From a virus: a DNA stretch of 25,556 nt. The stretch is taken from positions 1 through 25,556 of IMG/VR virus record IMGVR_UViG_3300043543_000333. One strand, written 5' to 3'. Under the pieces are notes generated by a model that did not search any database, was not told the origin of the DNA, and saw only the letters and a list, made by a program, of their open reading frames with translations. A program made the translations under genes and the position numbers. Numbering within the stretch: the first letter of the stretch is position 1; each line of letters opens with the position of its first letter. Below are positions 12,371 to 25,556 of the stretch, one piece after another.

Positions 12371-12571
12371 CTATGCGAGCGGGAAGACGCGGAATTTATC
12401 ATCAAGGTCTGAGTCAGAATCGATTTTATTTTGCCTGTAAATATCAAAGCGAACGAGTTTGCCGCGTTGGAATATAAAGCGCAGTTCGCCGTAAAATTCC
12501 TCACTTTGTGCGAGGTCGCAGGCTTTTTTGATTATTTCCCAGTGCGAGGTAAATTTTGGTGTGTCGTTCAT
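12371..12571 (-). CDS. DUF2292-like small protein
   Basis: A 66-residue protein encoded between the large terminase and the late promoter. The segment EFYGELRFIFQRGKLVRFDI resembles DUF2292 and YezG-like small proteins, which have a short two- or three-strand unit with a conserved 'YGxxxxxxxxGK' pattern. The N-terminal helix (HWEIIKKACDLAQSE) fits too. These proteins are common in phages and have no established function. Its ATG overlaps the terminase TGA (ATGA), so the two are probably translationally coupled. The family call is by pattern only. Confidence 0.5.
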   Translation of the reverse strand: MNDTPKFTSHWEIIKKACDLAQSEEFYGELRFIFQRGKLVRFDIYRQNKIDSDSDLDDKFRVFPLA

Positions 12572-13980
12572 ATTAGCCCGATAACTTCTGGTTTCTCAAA
12601 TCCGAATCGAAGTAGTCCAAGAATTAAATAAACGAACGCATCGACAAGATCATCGTGTTCCTCGATGCCAAATCCTAAAAGCTGGATGATCAAATCTTCG
12701 CAGCCTCGACGCGGGAATAAAATCGTGCCGTTTTGGATATACGGAACAATGGCGCGGAGGCGGCTGCGCTTGTCTGTGCCCGCTTTCATTGGAACTGCGG
12801 CAAGGAGGTGCCGCTGCATTTCTTGGATTGCCACTTTCTGGTAAGCCACATCCTCAACGAAGAATTGATGTATACCGCCTTTTGTTTGCGCGATGGCGCG
12901 CGCCTGTTCAAGGAATTCGTGAAAAAGAAGGCGGTCATTGATCGGATGCGGCTCAATGAAAATTCGAGGCTGGTCTCCGACGAAGATAAGATTGCCTGTT
13001 ACCATCGCCGTGTAGTCCGCGGTCTGCTTCTGGCTCGAGGCGAGGTCGACGCCTGTGCCGCTTGCACTCGGTTCCGCAGTTGGCGGCTGGTCGTAGTAGT
13101 GAATCATATCCTCTGTCACCTCCTGACCTTCCTCGGGAACGATTTTAAGAAGCATCTCGCGCTGCCAAGCGCTTGCGCCGAGTTCTGCACGGCGCGTCTC
13201 GATTGCTTGCGCGGTTGGATATTTTGCTGGCCATGTCACATTTCCTTGTGCGTCGATGAGTGGATATTCGAGAACCTTGAATGTTTCATCTTTTTTCAAT
13301 CGCGCAAGAAGCGCGTCGGTGTGGAGCCAGTTACCGATGATGATGAGTTTGCCGTCTTTTTCATCGAGTGCGGGGATGACTTCACCCTTCAGCCATTTTT
13401 CGGTTTTGTCGCGGTTTTCTTTGGTTCGAACCCATTCGAGATCTTCGGGGTCGTCAATGATGATGAGCTTCGGGCGGTGTTGCTGGTGCTTCAGACCGCG
13501 GATTTTTTGACCTCGGGAGCGCGCCATGATGCGGACGCCATTTTTCAGGAGAATGTTTGTTGCTTGCCATTCGAAGTCCGAATCCTTCATATCGCCATAG
13601 TCGGCAAGAATACGTTCATTTGTTTCGAGTTCATATTTGATATTCGCGATATTGATTTTTGCCTGTGCGAAGGTGTCGGCAATCGGCAGAATGAATTGAT
13701 ACTTATCCGATCGCTCAAGCGCAGCCCACAAAGGAAGCGCAAGGGAGCAGAAGGTGGTTTTCGCGCTGCCTCGAAAGGCAACGACAAGGAGCATGCGGAT
13801 GGAATCATCTTCAAGTGCCTCGATAAGTTCGCGGTGGAAGGTTGCGGGCGGGAGCGTGAGATGATGAGAAAGGTAAAGCAGACAGAAGCCAAGCAAGCTT
13901 TGTGCCTGCATACGGCGCATGCGGTAATCATCAAGAATTGCGGCTGCTTCGTGGTATTCAATTTTTAGTGGATTCTCCAT
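12568..13980 (-). CDS. terL: Terminase large subunit
   Basis: This 470-residue protein is the packaging motor. The N-terminal ATPase carries a Walker A motif at residues 69-76 (FRGSAKTT) and Walker B at 172-180 (LIIIDDPED), followed by the coupling segment GKLIIIGNWLH. The C-terminal RNase H-like nuclease has Asp312 in GVDLASSQKQTADYTA, an acidic pair near residue 376 (FFVEDVAY) and HDDLVDAFVY (443-447) with the last metal-binding Asp. All expected catalytic residues are present. Its start overlaps the small-subunit gene by 23 nt. It cuts the concatemer and drives DNA through the portal, whose gene follows after the late promoter. Confidence 0.95.
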   Translation of the reverse strand: MENPLKIEYHEAAAILDDYRMRRMQAQSLLGFCLLYLSHHLTLPPATFHRELIEALEDDSIRMLLVVAFRGSAKTTFCSLALPLWAALERSDKYQFILPIADTFAQAKINIANIKYELETNERILADYGDMKDSDFEWQATNILLKNGVRIMARSRGQKIRGLKHQQHRPKLIIIDDPEDLEWVRTKENRDKTEKWLKGEVIPALDEKDGKLIIIGNWLHTDALLARLKKDETFKVLEYPLIDAQGNVTWPAKYPTAQAIETRRAELGASAWQREMLLKIVPEEGQEVTEDMIHYYDQPPTAEPSASGTGVDLASSQKQTADYTAMVTGNLIFVGDQPRIFIEPHPINDRLLFHEFLEQARAIAQTKGGIHQFFVEDVAYQKVAIQEMQRHLLAAVPMKAGTDKRSRLRAIVPYIQNGTILFPRRGCEDLIIQLLGFGIEEHDDLVDAFVYLILGLLRFGFEKPEVIGLI

Positions 13981-14518
13981 TTTGTGTGGGAAGTTTTAAT
14001 CCCTGCGCTGGTAGATTTTTCGCTTCATCTGGGTTTTTGGGTTTAATCAACCCCCATTTTAGAAAAACCGAAAGGATTTTCGCTTTTTCTGCATCTGTAA
14101 GTGGCGCGGGGCGGTGTTCGATTTCGCCAAGATGTCGGGTGAAAACACCAGCGTCCATCTCGGCCTGCAAAAGTTCGAGCTCATTTTTGAAAAGTTCTCT
14201 GAGAGCCACGATGCGAGCCACGGGAGGGTTGTTCGGATTTGTCGCCTCGCGCCAGAGGCGCTCGTCAATCAACCTTTTCTTGTCTTGGATTGTTGCGATG
14301 CGGAGGTTAAGATTTGCAAGTTCGAGGCGTCTGCGCCGCTCTTCGATGATTTTTTTCATTAGCTTAGCAATGTATTCATCATCAAGGTGCAGTGGCGCTT
14401 CGATGCTCTGCTCGAGCACGGTTTGAATTTCACGGGGCGTCGCGTTCGGACGCAGAATCATAACGGCACGAACGCGCTCGAGATGGTATTTTCTTTTTTC
14501 TTCGGAATAAGCGGGCAT
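13958..14518 (-). CDS. terS: Putative terminase small subunit
   Basis: This 186-residue protein is encoded directly before, and overlapping, the large subunit. It begins with a DNA-binding-like helical region (MILRPNATPREIQTVLEQS), continues with long charged helices likely to oligomerise (IAKLMKKIIEERRRRLELAN, ELFKNELELLQAEMDAGVFT), and ends in a polar tail. This order (N-terminal helix-turn-helix, coiled-coil core, variable C-terminus) is normal for small terminases, which recognise the packaging site. No exact family was recognised, so the call is based on position and architecture. It follows the glycosyltransferase after 6 nt. Confidence 0.7.
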   Translation of the reverse strand: MPAYSEEKRKYHLERVRAVMILRPNATPREIQTVLEQSIEAPLHLDDEYIAKLMKKIIEERRRRLELANLNLRIATIQDKKRLIDERLWREATNPNNPPVARIVALRELFKNELELLQAEMDAGVFTRHLGEIEHRPAPLTDAEKAKILSVFLKWGLIKPKNPDEAKNLPAQGLKLPTQNGESTKN

Positions 14519-14524
14519 GTATAT

Positions 14525-15484
14525 TTAGGCATTATTTATAATTGAAAAATCTAAATCGTGCATACTTAATATTGCTTTAGCATTTTCTGCTATTTTTTTT
14601 ACATTTTCTTCGGAACAATGCATTATAAGATCCGCAAGCTCCATTTCATTTTCAACAGCAAAACAATTTTCACCAGGACGCAAAATCTCAATCCCATTCT
14701 CAAACCATTTTTTATTAAGAATAAGAACTGCACCAGAATAAATCGCTTCTAAAAAAGTATATTGTGTACCAGCACCATCATTTTTTATAGCAGTCATATC
14801 TACCATAAAACGGGCTGGGGCAAGGATATTGCCAACCGAAGCAAAACTTTTACCAAATTCTCCGTGCCAATATTTTCGCAAGTTTAATCCTTTTAACTTA
14901 TGAAACTCATAAATGGGGTTAATAACGCCATAGATTTTAATTGGTGGGAAGCCCTCTTTTTCTAAAATTTGATTCGCTTTCAAAATAATTTCAGTGTGTT
15001 TATCAAAATCAATCCGAGAAATAGCCACCACTTCTTTCTTTTCAACTGGCGGCGGCAGTGGGTATTGATAAAAAGGGTGATTGATATTAACAGATTGAAT
15101 GCCGTATTTTTTCAATAAAAGATTCTGCATTTGACGACGAATTGTGATAATTTTAAACTCTTTAAGATATGGAACTATGTCGGGCTTAATTTCGGTCGGA
15201 TCATGCATTACAAGCCGCATCCCCCGCAAATATGGTAAAAGGTGATAATAACTTTTATCAAAGGCGGTAATAATGGGGTTTGGAAGTGATCGTAGCGTTT
15301 CGCAGGGTATATTTTGATATGCTAAGTTCCAACCGAAGTCCCGATTTTTTCTTTCAAAGCGTTTTCCTACGCGATAAATACCCACCAATCCCCCTTTTTG
15401 TTTCAAAAGATGCGCAAGATGCGCCGTAAAGGTTACCCACCCTCCCAATTTTGGCTTTGCTAAATATAAAAGTGAAAATATCAT
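14525..15484 (-). CDS. GT-B fold glycosyltransferase, probable DNA-base glycosyltransferase
   Basis: This 319-residue protein has GT-B/GT4 landmarks. It begins with a Rossmann-like strand and Gly turn (LLYLAKPKLGGWVTF). The C-terminal donor-binding half starts at VVAISRIDFDKHTEIILK (152-169), the usual 'SRL...K' nucleotide-sugar segment. NDGAGTQYTFLEAIYSGAVL (235-253) corresponds to the acidic donor-contact motif; here it is D-x9-E rather than the common E-x7-E. RPGENCFAV completes it. Its ATG overlaps the dioxygenase TGA, so the two are coupled. In that setting I infer that it adds a sugar to the hydroxymethyl base made by the dioxygenase. It could instead modify a protein or cell surface. 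The gene is AT-rich: 32-33% GC in two sampled 60-base lines versus 52% in the terminase and portal lines sampled. Confidence 0.75.
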   Translation of the reverse strand: MIFSLLYLAKPKLGGWVTFTAHLAHLLKQKGGLVGIYRVGKRFERKNRDFGWNLAYQNIPCETLRSLPNPIITAFDKSYYHLLPYLRGMRLVMHDPTEIKPDIVPYLKEFKIITIRRQMQNLLLKKYGIQSVNINHPFYQYPLPPPVEKKEVVAISRIDFDKHTEIILKANQILEKEGFPPIKIYGVINPIYEFHKLKGLNLRKYWHGEFGKSFASVGNILAPARFMVDMTAIKNDGAGTQYTFLEAIYSGAVLILNKKWFENGIEILRPGENCFAVENEMELADLIMHCSEENVKKIAENAKAILSMHDLDFSIINNA

Positions 15485-16362
15485 CTTACCTCGTATCCAA
15501 AATCGCCCTCACGCTTTAATTTTTCAGCTCTTTTAACGATCGTTTCGGCAAGCTCTCCTCTTGCCCGCCGCATTTCAATGTCTTGACGAATATTGCGAAT
15601 GCGTGCAATCTCTTCATCAACTGTTAAACACTCCCACATTCGGCGAAGGGAATAATAAACAATTGTATAGCGATAGGCATCTTTAGAAAGAAGCTTAAAA
15701 GGAGTAACGCCGTGCAAAATGTTTTGACCGTCGAATATCAAAATGCTGTTATTCCGAATTTCCAGAGCGCAATCATATTCGGGCAAAGCAAGGTACCCAC
15801 CCGAAATATCTTTTTTGAAGGCCAACATGCAAGAATAAACATCTTTAAAGTTGCCAGTATCAAAATGATATTTAAGAGGATTATTTTTGTTGATAATTCC
15901 AGATGTAAAAGGAGTTCCTTCGATACGATATTCGTTGAGCACTTTTTCCGCCATTTTTTCGTGTTTCAAATAGGTTTCAGGGTCTTGTTTAAAATAAATC
16001 TCTGCAACCTTCTTGGCATATGAACAAATTATAGCGTGCTCTTTGGGATTTTCTCTGGCGAGAGAGGTAACGCGACAATAATTCTGTCTAAACTCTATAC
16101 GAGGAGCGAAGCCAAAAATACGGCTAATGCTTTTAAGCCCTCGTGAACGTTCGCCTTCTACATATTTAACCCTCTTTAGAGCAGCTACAATTTCGCTTTC
16201 GTCAAGATCCAGTTCCTGATAAATAACTTTGACCTTTCCATCGTCAGCATCCACCAACTTTACGCTTTCACGAAACAAAGTAGAATAATCGGTTTCTAAA
16301 GCCGAGCGGCGAATATAATCATTGTAATCAATTTTTTTTCTTTTAACGGTTATGATTTTCAT
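15481..16362 (-). CDS. TET/JBP-type 2-oxoglutarate/Fe(II) dioxygenase
   Basis: A 293-residue protein with the double-stranded beta-helix iron site: His166-x-Asp168 in LKYHFDTGNF, the distal His217 in NILHGVTPF, and the 2-oxoglutarate Arg231 in DAYRYTIVYYS. Between them, SGGYLALPEYDCALEI and LIFDGQ give the GG-x-L-x-x-PE and D-x-x-x-x-H-G-V-T-P pattern I associate with the TET/JBP family, which oxidises the methyl group of thymine or 5-methylcytosine in DNA. No C5-methyltransferase is encoded here, so thymine (giving hydroxymethyluracil) is the simpler substrate. It overlaps the ParB-like gene by 20 nt and the glycosyltransferase by 4 nt. Oxygenase call is strong, DNA-base substrate is inference. 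One sampled line is only 25% GC. Confidence 0.8.
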   Translation of the reverse strand: MKIITVKRKKIDYNDYIRRSALETDYSTLFRESVKLVDADDGKVKVIYQELDLDESEIVAALKRVKYVEGERSRGLKSISRIFGFAPRIEFRQNYCRVTSLARENPKEHAIICSYAKKVAEIYFKQDPETYLKHEKMAEKVLNEYRIEGTPFTSGIINKNNPLKYHFDTGNFKDVYSCMLAFKKDISGGYLALPEYDCALEIRNNSILIFDGQNILHGVTPFKLLSKDAYRYTIVYYSLRRMWECLTVDEEIARIRNIRQDIEMRRARGELAETIVKRAEKLKREGDFGYEVR

Positions 16363-16963
16363 AAAAGTCTAAAAGTTTTAATACTGCTTCGGTATTATTT
16401 TTTAACCCTTCTTTTTCTATAACTGCCTCTAATCTTTTAATCGTTCTTTCAAATTCTTCAGCTGAAAATATAAGAACAATTTCGCGGATATCAGATTGAA
16501 GCCATTTTGACAGCTGCTCTGTGTGCAGGGTATCTATATCTCTTTCTATGTTTGGTTGATTAAAACGCTCCAATATTGATTGGAGATCACTCTGATACGC
16601 AAGATCAACACGGTAATCATCCAAAGGGAATTCTGGTAAGGCAGATAAAAGCTCTGCAAGTCTTTTTTCTTCATAATATCCAGCCCTATCATTATCCGAT
16701 AAAGCGTATTCCAGCATCTCACTTTCGTTTTTAGGATGAACAATAGAAACCCAAACCTCCTCAATCCCGAGATCTCGATATGCTCGCAGTCGCATATTGC
16801 CTCCCAGCACTATACCGTCGGGCGTGATAATGAGGGGTTTATATTGCCCAAGTTTCCGAATTTGATTTTTTAACCGCTCGTAATCTTCTGGGCGAATTGC
16901 TTTTGGATTCTTATCCCAGTTTTTAAGTTTTGAAATATGCCAAAATGTCTTTTGAGTTTCCAT
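16343..16963 (-). CDS. ParB/Srx-like domain protein of the modification cassette
   Basis: A 206-residue protein whose first ~100 residues are a ParB N-terminal-like domain: FWHISKLKNWDKNPKAI, then RLKNQIRKLGQYKPLI and GGNMRLRAYRDLGIEEVWV. The NP at 19-20 and GGNMR at 54-58 match ParB box I/II layout. The C-terminal half is helical and unassigned. ParB-like domains can bind CTP or act as nucleases, and they recur next to phage DNA-modifying enzymes. It is first in the cassette and overlaps the dioxygenase gene. It may target or regulate modification, and it is unlikely to be a partition protein because no ParA is present. Its ATG lies 6 nt after a -10 box. Confidence 0.8.
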   Translation of the reverse strand: METQKTFWHISKLKNWDKNPKAIRPEDYERLKNQIRKLGQYKPLIITPDGIVLGGNMRLRAYRDLGIEEVWVSIVHPKNESEMLEYALSDNDRAGYYEEKRLAELLSALPEFPLDDYRVDLAYQSDLQSILERFNQPNIERDIDTLHTEQLSKWLQSDIREIVLIFSAEEFERTIKRLEAVIEKEGLKNNTEAVLKLLDFYENHNR

Positions 16964-22928: not shown

Positions 22929-23996
22929 TTATGCGAATTCTTTATTAAGAGCACCTAATGTCAGGGTATCAACGATACCGCTTTGTGTCAAATTTCGAAG
23001 AGCTTGGAATCTCTTGACTGCTGCTCTTGTGACTCCGCCGTAATAACCTGTGGGTTCTGTCGTAAGCGGGAAGAGGTATCCTGCATCGTCTTGGAGATAT
23101 CCAAGGCATCTCTGAAGCATGGCGACGTCATTACCGCGCGATCCCACGCCGAGTGTTCGGGTGAAAATATATTTCGGCTTTTGAAGCTGATTATTAAGAA
23201 GCGCGAGGTTGGCCAAATCCTCAAAGTAGAAGGCACCCATAATTCTGTCGTTTGAGGGTTTGAACCAGTCCTCAGTTACGATGCGGCGTCCTTTGATACC
23301 CGCACCCTCACCCCACGAATCTTCGATGATGATTGCGCGCTTGTTTTGATACAGCGTAAAATCAACGCCAGTGACCGCATGACCGTATGGCTTTTGGCTT
23401 GCAGAATCGATGCGGGGCACGTCGCGGTTCCATTCATTCATATCGAAGCGAAAAAGAAGCATGACGGGCTTGCCCGTTGCGATTATGGCAGCTATTTTCT
23501 CTATATCAAAAGGAAGATGGAACCAATTTTTGGCGCGATAAATTTTGCCTATAACTTCATAGGAGGGCTTTCGGTCGCTTGCCTGATTCATTGCCGTCTC
23601 TGGTTGACGTTGGCCATCCATTAAAGCATTAAGCGTTGCCCCGAAATTCCGCGCAATTTCGCAGGCATCGGCTCCATACATTCCCGCCTGCGGATAATTG
23701 GAACGCCGCGAGTAGATATCCCGAGCAGAGAACATAAGGAATTGCCCCTCTTCGAGGTAATTCATAATCCCGAGGCATTTGGCTGTTGCCTGTGCTACGC
23801 AGGATTGCGATCCATCTTGATCGAAGATCGGGAACTTACGCCATTCTGATTCCGACTTTTCGCGCCATGGAACTGCGCCGAATGTCAGTACCTCCTCGGC
23901 AGAGTAATCTTTGGCTTTCTCAAATTCTGGGCGCGGGTCGGGAAGCGCGCCAGTTCCAAATTGCCTCTTTTTGAAGAAAATCTGCATCAGCCCCAT
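22929..23996 (-). CDS. Papain-fold (C1A-like) peptidase with peptidoglycan-binding domain
   Basis: A 355-residue protein. The peptidase part (about 50-250) has the oxyanion Gln60 and Cys66 in FDQDGSQSCVAQATA, His206 in PYGHAVTGVDF, and IIEDSWGEG (224-231) at the place of the family's N-SWG, so Asp226 replaces the usual Asn. Residues 280-355 are a PG_binding_1 repeat (GVGSRGNDVAMLQRCLGYL, TGYYGGVTRAAVKRFQALR). The combination suggests a cell-wall peptidase, either virion-borne for entry or for lysis. No signal peptide is evident. The start overlaps the previous stop; ATG 23987 (TGATG) is an alternative start. Confidence 0.85.
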   Translation of the reverse strand: MGLMQIFFKKRQFGTGALPDPRPEFEKAKDYSAEEVLTFGAVPWREKSESEWRKFPIFDQDGSQSCVAQATAKCLGIMNYLEEGQFLMFSARDIYSRRSNYPQAGMYGADACEIARNFGATLNALMDGQRQPETAMNQASDRKPSYEVIGKIYRAKNWFHLPFDIEKIAAIIATGKPVMLLFRFDMNEWNRDVPRIDSASQKPYGHAVTGVDFTLYQNKRAIIIEDSWGEGAGIKGRRIVTEDWFKPSNDRIMGAFYFEDLANLALLNNQLQKPKYIFTRTLGVGSRGNDVAMLQRCLGYLQDDAGYLFPLTTEPTGYYGGVTRAAVKRFQALRNLTQSGIVDTLTLGALNKEFA

Positions 23997-25035: not shown

Positions 25036-25527
25036 TTAGTTAATAGTTATTTGAACTTCGATTGTGGTATCTTCACCGCTTGCCTTCGTGTATGGTAAAC
25101 CGAAAAGCGCGCGGTTGAAGATTCGACCTGTGCTAATTGTTCCGCTCCCGTCGACGAAGGTACCAAATTCTCTATAGGTACCATTCGGGAGCAATGCATC
25201 CGAAAAGAAGAATTGAAGGGTAAGAGTATTGCCCGAAACACTGGCAGATGTCTTTACGGCGCGAACAGTTGGGTTCTGAAGTTGTGTATCGCTGGCTGCG
25301 GGCGGGTTCGTGCCTGTACCGATATCGGCGTGCGTGATATTGAGGCTGTAAGTATTCGTGCCAGCAAGGCGATCGAGAATGAGATCTTTACCTGTATCGT
25401 TGCCAAGCATGATGAGGTTACGCATCCAACGTGTGCGGCGAAGGATGCGTCCCGTTTTCGCATCCGTGGTGATGATGCGAATGCGTCCTTTGATTGCTGA
25501 ATTTTCTTTTTCTTTGATGCGTCTCAT
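25036..25527 (-). CDS. Small tail-fibre-like protein
   Basis: A 163-residue protein that, on the circle, lies 4 nt after the tail-tip gene. It begins with a charged part (IKGRIRIITTDAKTGRILRR), then RWMRNLIMLGNDTGKDLILD and GTGTNPPAASDTQLQNPTV, typical of tail-fibre and collar-region proteins. The rest is beta-rich (TLTLQFFFSDALLPNGTY, EFGTFVDGSGTISTGRIF) and ends in VQITIN. Probably part of the distal tail. The first 45 codons also appear at window position 1-135. Confidence 0.65.
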   Translation of the reverse strand: MRRIKEKENSAIKGRIRIITTDAKTGRILRRTRWMRNLIMLGNDTGKDLILDRLAGTNTYSLNITHADIGTGTNPPAASDTQLQNPTVRAVKTSASVSGNTLTLQFFFSDALLPNGTYREFGTFVDGSGTISTGRIFNRALFGLPYTKASGEDTTIEVQITIN

Positions 25528-25556
25528 GGTTTTAAGACCAAGTGCTGAAATTCCAT
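25393..25556. repeat. Right copy of the terminal overlap
   Basis: It matches 1-164 with one synonymous substitution (25429 a versus 37 g). See the left copy. The unit genome is about 25,392 bp. Confidence 0.95.

Follow-up and report, generated by a model that had tools for sequence, protein, structure and literature searches.

A three-gene phage cassette that may write a base-J-like glycosylated base into DNA

The IMG/VR phage IMGVR_UViG_3300043543_000333, a DNA record of 25,556 nt that we analysed over its whole length (hereafter the window), carries a compact cassette that probably installs a glycosylated 5-hydroxymethylpyrimidine in already replicated phage DNA. In its most specific form, which we regard as an even call, a TET/JBP enzyme and a glycosyltransferase of a new GT-B family would make a phage base J post-replicatively, in a small phage apparently free of polymerase and nucleotide-pool enzymes, and with a freely exchangeable slot for the decorating enzyme. 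The cassette consists of three overlapping ORFs on the minus strand (16963-14525), at exactly the positions given in a first-pass annotation of this DNA, with the presumed terminase genes directly downstream. The overlaps amount to 20 bases between ParB and TET and 4 bases between TET and GT-B. The features, with the evidence for each, are as follows.

16343..16963, minus strand: ParB-like protein, first cassette gene, 206 aa, with a ParB/Srx-type N-terminal domain and a conserved C-terminal segment (PHROG, family profile, synteny)
15481..16362, minus strand: TET/JBP Fe(II)/2-oxoglutarate dioxygenase, 293 aa (Pfam Tet_JBP, iron triad, AF2/Foldseek)
14525..15484, minus strand: GT-B (GT4-like) glycosyltransferase, 319 aa (AF2 model, Foldseek, relatives mostly beside TET)
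13958..14518, minus strand: terminase small subunit candidate, context outside the cassette (position between the cassette and the terminase large subunit)
12568..13980, minus strand: terminase large subunit candidate, context (tblastn matches downstream of TET in loci L017 and L021)

The phage genome is probably complete at ∼25.4 kb, since the termini of the record repeat over 164 bases (1-164 versus 25393-25556), 163 of which are identical with a single A/G mismatch. A terminal repeat with one mismatch would escape an exact-repeat test. The cassette has a G+C content of 37.3% versus 47.5% elsewhere in the genome, and third-position G+C is 0.29-0.34 in its genes versus 0.45-0.59 in ten other genes of the window. 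This departure in base composition suggests that the cassette was acquired recently and as one unit. The gene order from cassette to terminase recurs in relatives; a PHROG search with the terminase small subunit candidate gave no match. Searches of the window found no DNA polymerase of family A, B or C, neither PF00303 (thymidylate-synthase type) nor PF18723 (5-hmdU DNA kinase), and, in agreement with the first-pass annotation, no C5-methyltransferase (PF00145). Elsewhere (22929-23996) the window encodes a protein that combines a papain-type C1 peptidase domain with a peptidoglycan-binding domain, which is unusual for a phage protein.

The middle gene is, by sequence and structure model, a bona fide TET/JBP dioxygenase, and its predicted activity is very probably the oxidation of a 5-methylpyrimidine in DNA. 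Pfam Tet_JBP matched residues 92-238 with E=1.2e-16 (60.8 bits, cut-off 34.9). The dioxygenase motifs named in the first-pass annotation are all present, namely H166-F-D168, H217, R231, HGVTP (217-221) and GGYLALPE (188-195, the GG-x-L-x-x-PE feature). The iron triad H166-x-D168...H217 and R231, the residue for 2-oxoglutarate, are invariant in 53 viral relatives with identities down to ∼22%, and among all solved structures the profile of these relatives aligns to TET2, CMD1, NgTet1 and CcTet. With the AlphaFold2 model (pLDDT 94), the top 26 Foldseek matches were NgTet1, TET2, CcTet and CMD1 (5e-13 to 2e-10), while AlkB/FTO-type enzymes came at 5e-8 or worse, five orders behind the best E-value. 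The first-pass annotation had named clustering with other oxygenases as the outcome that would speak against it; on this fold ranking, the alternative of a protein or small-molecule hydroxylase was rejected. Homologues were found at 54-60% identity, which, like the Tet_JBP score, is far above what chance would give. An alignment scan using distant TETs yielded nothing, the conserved blocks being missing. In Mycobacterium phage records, gene 2 (e.g. NC_011044.1:776-1744) encodes a TET/JBP protein under the name queuine tRNA-ribosyltransferase, a label that PHROG 6059 also bears and that looks like a propagated misannotation.

The third gene is, on its structure model, a glycosyltransferase of the GT-B fold (two-Rossmann, GT4-like), from a family outside Pfam, NCBIfam and PHROG. 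As proposed earlier, it holds SRIDFDK (156-162) and an acidic donor-site region (D236/G237/E246), and both are conserved in 29 relatives. Single-sequence searches of Pfam, PHROGs, NCBIfam, PDB sequences and IMG/VR returned no match, and neither did Pfam at E up to 10, the TET-associated family TAGT (PF20691) included. Profile searches, which the first-pass annotation had suggested for both enzymes, bore out the dioxygenase, above the Tet_JBP cut-off, and gave no family match for the glycosyltransferase. By sequence, GT4/Glycos_transf_1 did not match the window protein and matched one relative (L092) weakly, below threshold. A plasmid match at E=1 was discarded as noise. The AF2 model (pLDDT 95), obtained with the help of its relatives, did place the protein, as Foldseek aligned it to the GT4-type GT-B enzymes MshA, BshA, PimA and HepE at ∼1e-11. 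Among the 50 matches listed, the top query-normalised TM-score (0.73) was that of T4 AGT with UDP and hydroxymethyluracil DNA, and among viral predicted structures the closest function-assigned proteins of named phages were two glycosyltransferases of Bacillus phage SP-15. The DNA of SP-15 contains a glucosylated hypermodified uracil in place of part of its thymine (PMC5977210).

Relatives of the glycosyltransferase were reached first via TET neighbourhoods and then by an alignment scan, giving 52 loci; the viral ones mostly adjoin TET. In tblastn searches with three different members, the family did not turn up in any of 50,697 named phage records. The closest cellular relatives, at 37-42% identity, lie on Nitrososphaerales MAG contigs (L142-L148) with no TET or ParB nearby. 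A likely prophage form of the cassette lies on an Actinomadura rayongensis contig (L149:7105-12704), where ParB and a GT-B/TET region occur together with probable terminase genes.

The ParB/Srx assignment of the first gene, also made in the first-pass annotation, is weak on the single sequence, where Pfam ParB_N scored E=6e-4 (20.2 bits, below the 26.3 cut-off), and firm on the family profile: a profile from 16 relatives matched Noc/ParB structures with E=4e-13. PHROG ParB-like families matched the window protein with E down to 2e-20. This protein probably loads or guides the TET oxygenase on DNA.

Two IMG/VR scans with TET queries and the glycosyltransferase scan together gave 138 distinct viral TET loci. 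In 99 of the 103 loci with enough sequence, a ParB-like gene precedes TET by at most two genes, and in at least 66 of 92 a terminase large subunit follows it by at most five; both counts come from HMMs built here and from fragmentary contigs, and are lower bounds. In 83 of the 138 loci a glycosyltransferase of TAGT or GT-B type adjoins TET. The ParB-TET-glycosyltransferase architecture is thus a widespread and known kind. In the relatives a single decorator adjoins TET: TAGT, which is an existing Pfam family ('TET-Associated Glycosyltransferase'), GT-B, an FkbM methyltransferase, or amino-acid-transfer/kinase genes. Some of these loci hold genes for an amino acid:DNA transferase and a P-loop kinase, together with DAO-like or PLP-enzyme-like genes; the PLP assignment was made by eye, the others by Pfam. 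Among named phages, the order is ParB-TET-TerS-TerL in mycobacteriophage Nigel, while phages of Arthrobacter, Gordonia and Rhodococcus have kinase or aGPT-type genes in addition. One operon type (L075:1325-4832, also L079 and L081) comprises ParB, an amino acid:DNA transferase, an FAD oxidoreductase, a P-loop gene and TET, in a record without a C5-methyltransferase. In many loci (L171-L189, e.g. L173:6873-8239 and L186:4765-6131) TET is followed by proteins of 308 and 148 aa without a Pfam match, which may be a further decorator pair.

Crucially, the two glycosyltransferase types replace each other in otherwise nearly identical phages. Between ParB and TET, locus L066 has a GT-B gene (958-1860) where L071 has a TAGT gene (1137-1859), with both flanks 94-96% identical. 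The same exchange, with flanks of the same identity, separates L066 from L069, and L061 differs from L052 likewise with immediate flanks 85-93% identical; over all exchange pairs (L066 versus L071/L069, L061 versus L052/L051) the immediate flanks are 82-96% identical. With decorators sorted into six classes, the label must change 32 times on the TET tree; for GT-B the number is at least 9 even when only strongly supported branches are counted. Two unrelated enzymes, GT-B and TAGT, are thus interchangeable at a single position, and the simplest reading, which we hold to be very likely, is that both decorate the product of TET and so the same base. This exchange is the strongest evidence that the third gene of the window would act on DNA.

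As to which base is modified, we lean towards thymine, hydroxylated to 5hmU and then glycosylated to a base-J-like glycosyl-5hmU, rather than towards oxidation of 5mC. This preference is based on the absence or rarity of C5-methyltransferases and on a TET-less GT-B clade beside homologues of 5-hmdU kinase and thymidylate synthase. Among whole records, only 5 of 48 for TET relatives and 2 of 50 for glycosyltransferase relatives had a C5-methyltransferase above cut-off. Since many of them are fragments, the absence is best established in the window and in the complete named actinophages Nigel, Margaery, LittleMunchkin and Ottawa, all four of which have ParB-TET and no such enzyme. The genes next to TET in relatives include amino acid:DNA transferases and P-loop kinases of the type used in thymine hypermodification. 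Of 16 records with TET-less GT-B operons, 14 encode both a 5-hmdU DNA kinase domain and a homologue of thymidylate synthase; this set is essentially one clade on the tree and is weighed as one observation. Neither gene was found in the 34 other GT-B records (0/34), 32 of which have a visible TET. In 10 of 11 of these synthase homologues the motif RSNDxIWGxxGAN has Asn where the aligned CMP hydroxymethylase has Asp, and Asn/Asp at this site is a known dUMP/dCMP switch (PMC8670742). The TET-less operons (L115-L133) also encode a radical SAM/SPASM protein along with the kinase domain, the synthase homologue and GT-B, with the further addition in L124 of a cytidylyltransferase/mannose-6-phosphate-isomerase-like fusion. 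Their product is possibly an elaborate sugar-bearing thymine. The first-pass annotation had likewise named thymine as the likelier substrate, and these contexts support it.

An alternative that we consider possible though rather doubtful is that TET oxidises 5mC made by a methyltransferase of the host or a co-resident element, and that GT-B glycosylates the resulting 5hmC. It is kept alive by the nearest TET relative (L002/L003, 57% identity), whose operon reads ParB-C5MTase-ParB-TET, so that this TET lineage may oxidise 5mC, supplied by the host in the present case. C5-methyltransferases also occur in L016 and in the records of L025 and L117/L118, and phage TET systems are described in the literature as producing glycosylated cytosine (PMC12730594). 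Against it, the methyltransferase is missing from about nine tenths of the related records as well as from the window and the four actinophages, the family's decorators belong to the thymine type, and reliance on host methylation would leave only few sites modified. The base-contact residues do not decide between the two. In the profile alignment N171 matches TET2 N1387 (NgTet1 D234), which would suit cytosine, and in the HMM alignment L239 sits where TET2 has H1904 and NgTet1 H297; the former pair binds N4 of 5mC and the latter N3 (PMC7854593, PMC4224472). Both N171 and L239 are common to TET relatives with and without a C5-methyltransferase, and a substrate call from these residues was therefore dropped.

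Two further readings were weighed. In one of them, which is unlikely, TET acts on DNA while GT-B does other work, such as the alteration of host surface glycans against superinfection. GT4-like folds do occur in enzymes that glycosylate cell-surface and small molecules, and the archaeal chromosomes mentioned above carry close relatives without TET. Yet the GT-B gene overlaps TET translationally, TAGT takes its place in phages that are almost identical, distinct TET-GT-B loci number at least 25, and the second habitat of the family is beside a 5-hmdU DNA kinase domain. More improbable still is a counter-defence in which TET strips or further oxidises host methylation marks and no stable glycosylated base is formed. 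Characterised TET enzymes do oxidise 5mC stepwise, but the frequent presence of a decorator partner, with varied chemistries, points to a stable hypermodified base.

Sequence and models show the enzyme classes and folds, the catalytic residues, the operon layout and the exchangeable decorator; action on DNA, the choice of thymine, the sugar, the part played by ParB and the gain for the phage are inferences. In the favoured thymine route, the TET/JBP enzyme would hydroxylate a 5-methyl group in replicated DNA, most likely that of thymine, to give 5-hydroxymethyluracil, and the GT-B enzyme would move a sugar from a nucleotide sugar onto the new hydroxyl. TET would be a second, post-replicative way to hydroxymethylate a base that is otherwise made via a thymidylate-synthase homologue, and such a route fits this phage because no DNA polymerase of the three families was found in the window. 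The modified genome would then be packaged, and a possible coupling of modification to packaging may account for the position of the cassette next to the terminase genes. The likely benefit would be a genome shielded from host nucleases, which may include resistance to restriction.

The first-pass annotation took such a minimal system to be undescribed, which does not hold: ParB-TET-glycosyltransferase sets are common in viral contigs, and Pfam already contains TAGT. What is unusual here, within a known kind of cassette, is that the GT-B family has no model in Pfam and that the context is of thymine type and lacks a methyltransferase. The prediction of phage base J, which was unreported as of 2019 (PMC6449724), is credible. 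If true, this would be the first phage counterpart of trypanosome base J, from a prokaryotic virus; phages would join kinetoplastids in having TET/JBP enzymes that use thymine, and two small modular enzymes would become available for adding sugars to thymine within DNA. The substrate of phage TETs without a companion methyltransferase is directly testable, because named actinophages with ParB-TET and no C5-methyltransferase exist.

Several known systems resemble the cassette in part. Iyer et al. 2013 (as a prediction) and Burke et al. 2021 reportedly describe cytosine hypermodification by phage TET and glycosyltransferase. Such systems share with the window a TET/JBP enzyme, a glycosyltransferase and modification at the polymer level; the window and most of its relatives differ in lacking a C5-methyltransferase, and the window glycosyltransferase is a GT-B enzyme outside Pfam rather than TAGT. 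TAGT itself occupies the same slot in sister phages, between ParB and TET or after TET, but it is undetected in the window protein and is replaced wholesale by the GT4-like GT-B enzyme. Phages M6, ViI, phiW-14 and SP10 share their decorators (amino acid:DNA transferase, kinase) with relatives of the window, and operons of their type harbour a GT-B clade; they make 5hmdU as a nucleotide by means of a thymidylate-synthase homologue, whereas the TET of the window would make it in DNA. T4 AGT has the GT-B fold in common with the window enzyme (TMq 0.73 to its complex with hydroxymethyluracil DNA), and differs in its natural substrate, 5hmC, and in the lack of sequence similarity detected in PDB sequence searches. 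The predicted two-step logic is that of kinetoplastid base J, where JBP1/2 hydroxylases act on thymine in DNA and JGT then performs the O-glycosylation; the cassette differs in having a ParB partner, in sitting in a phage rather than a protist, and in that its product is a prediction.
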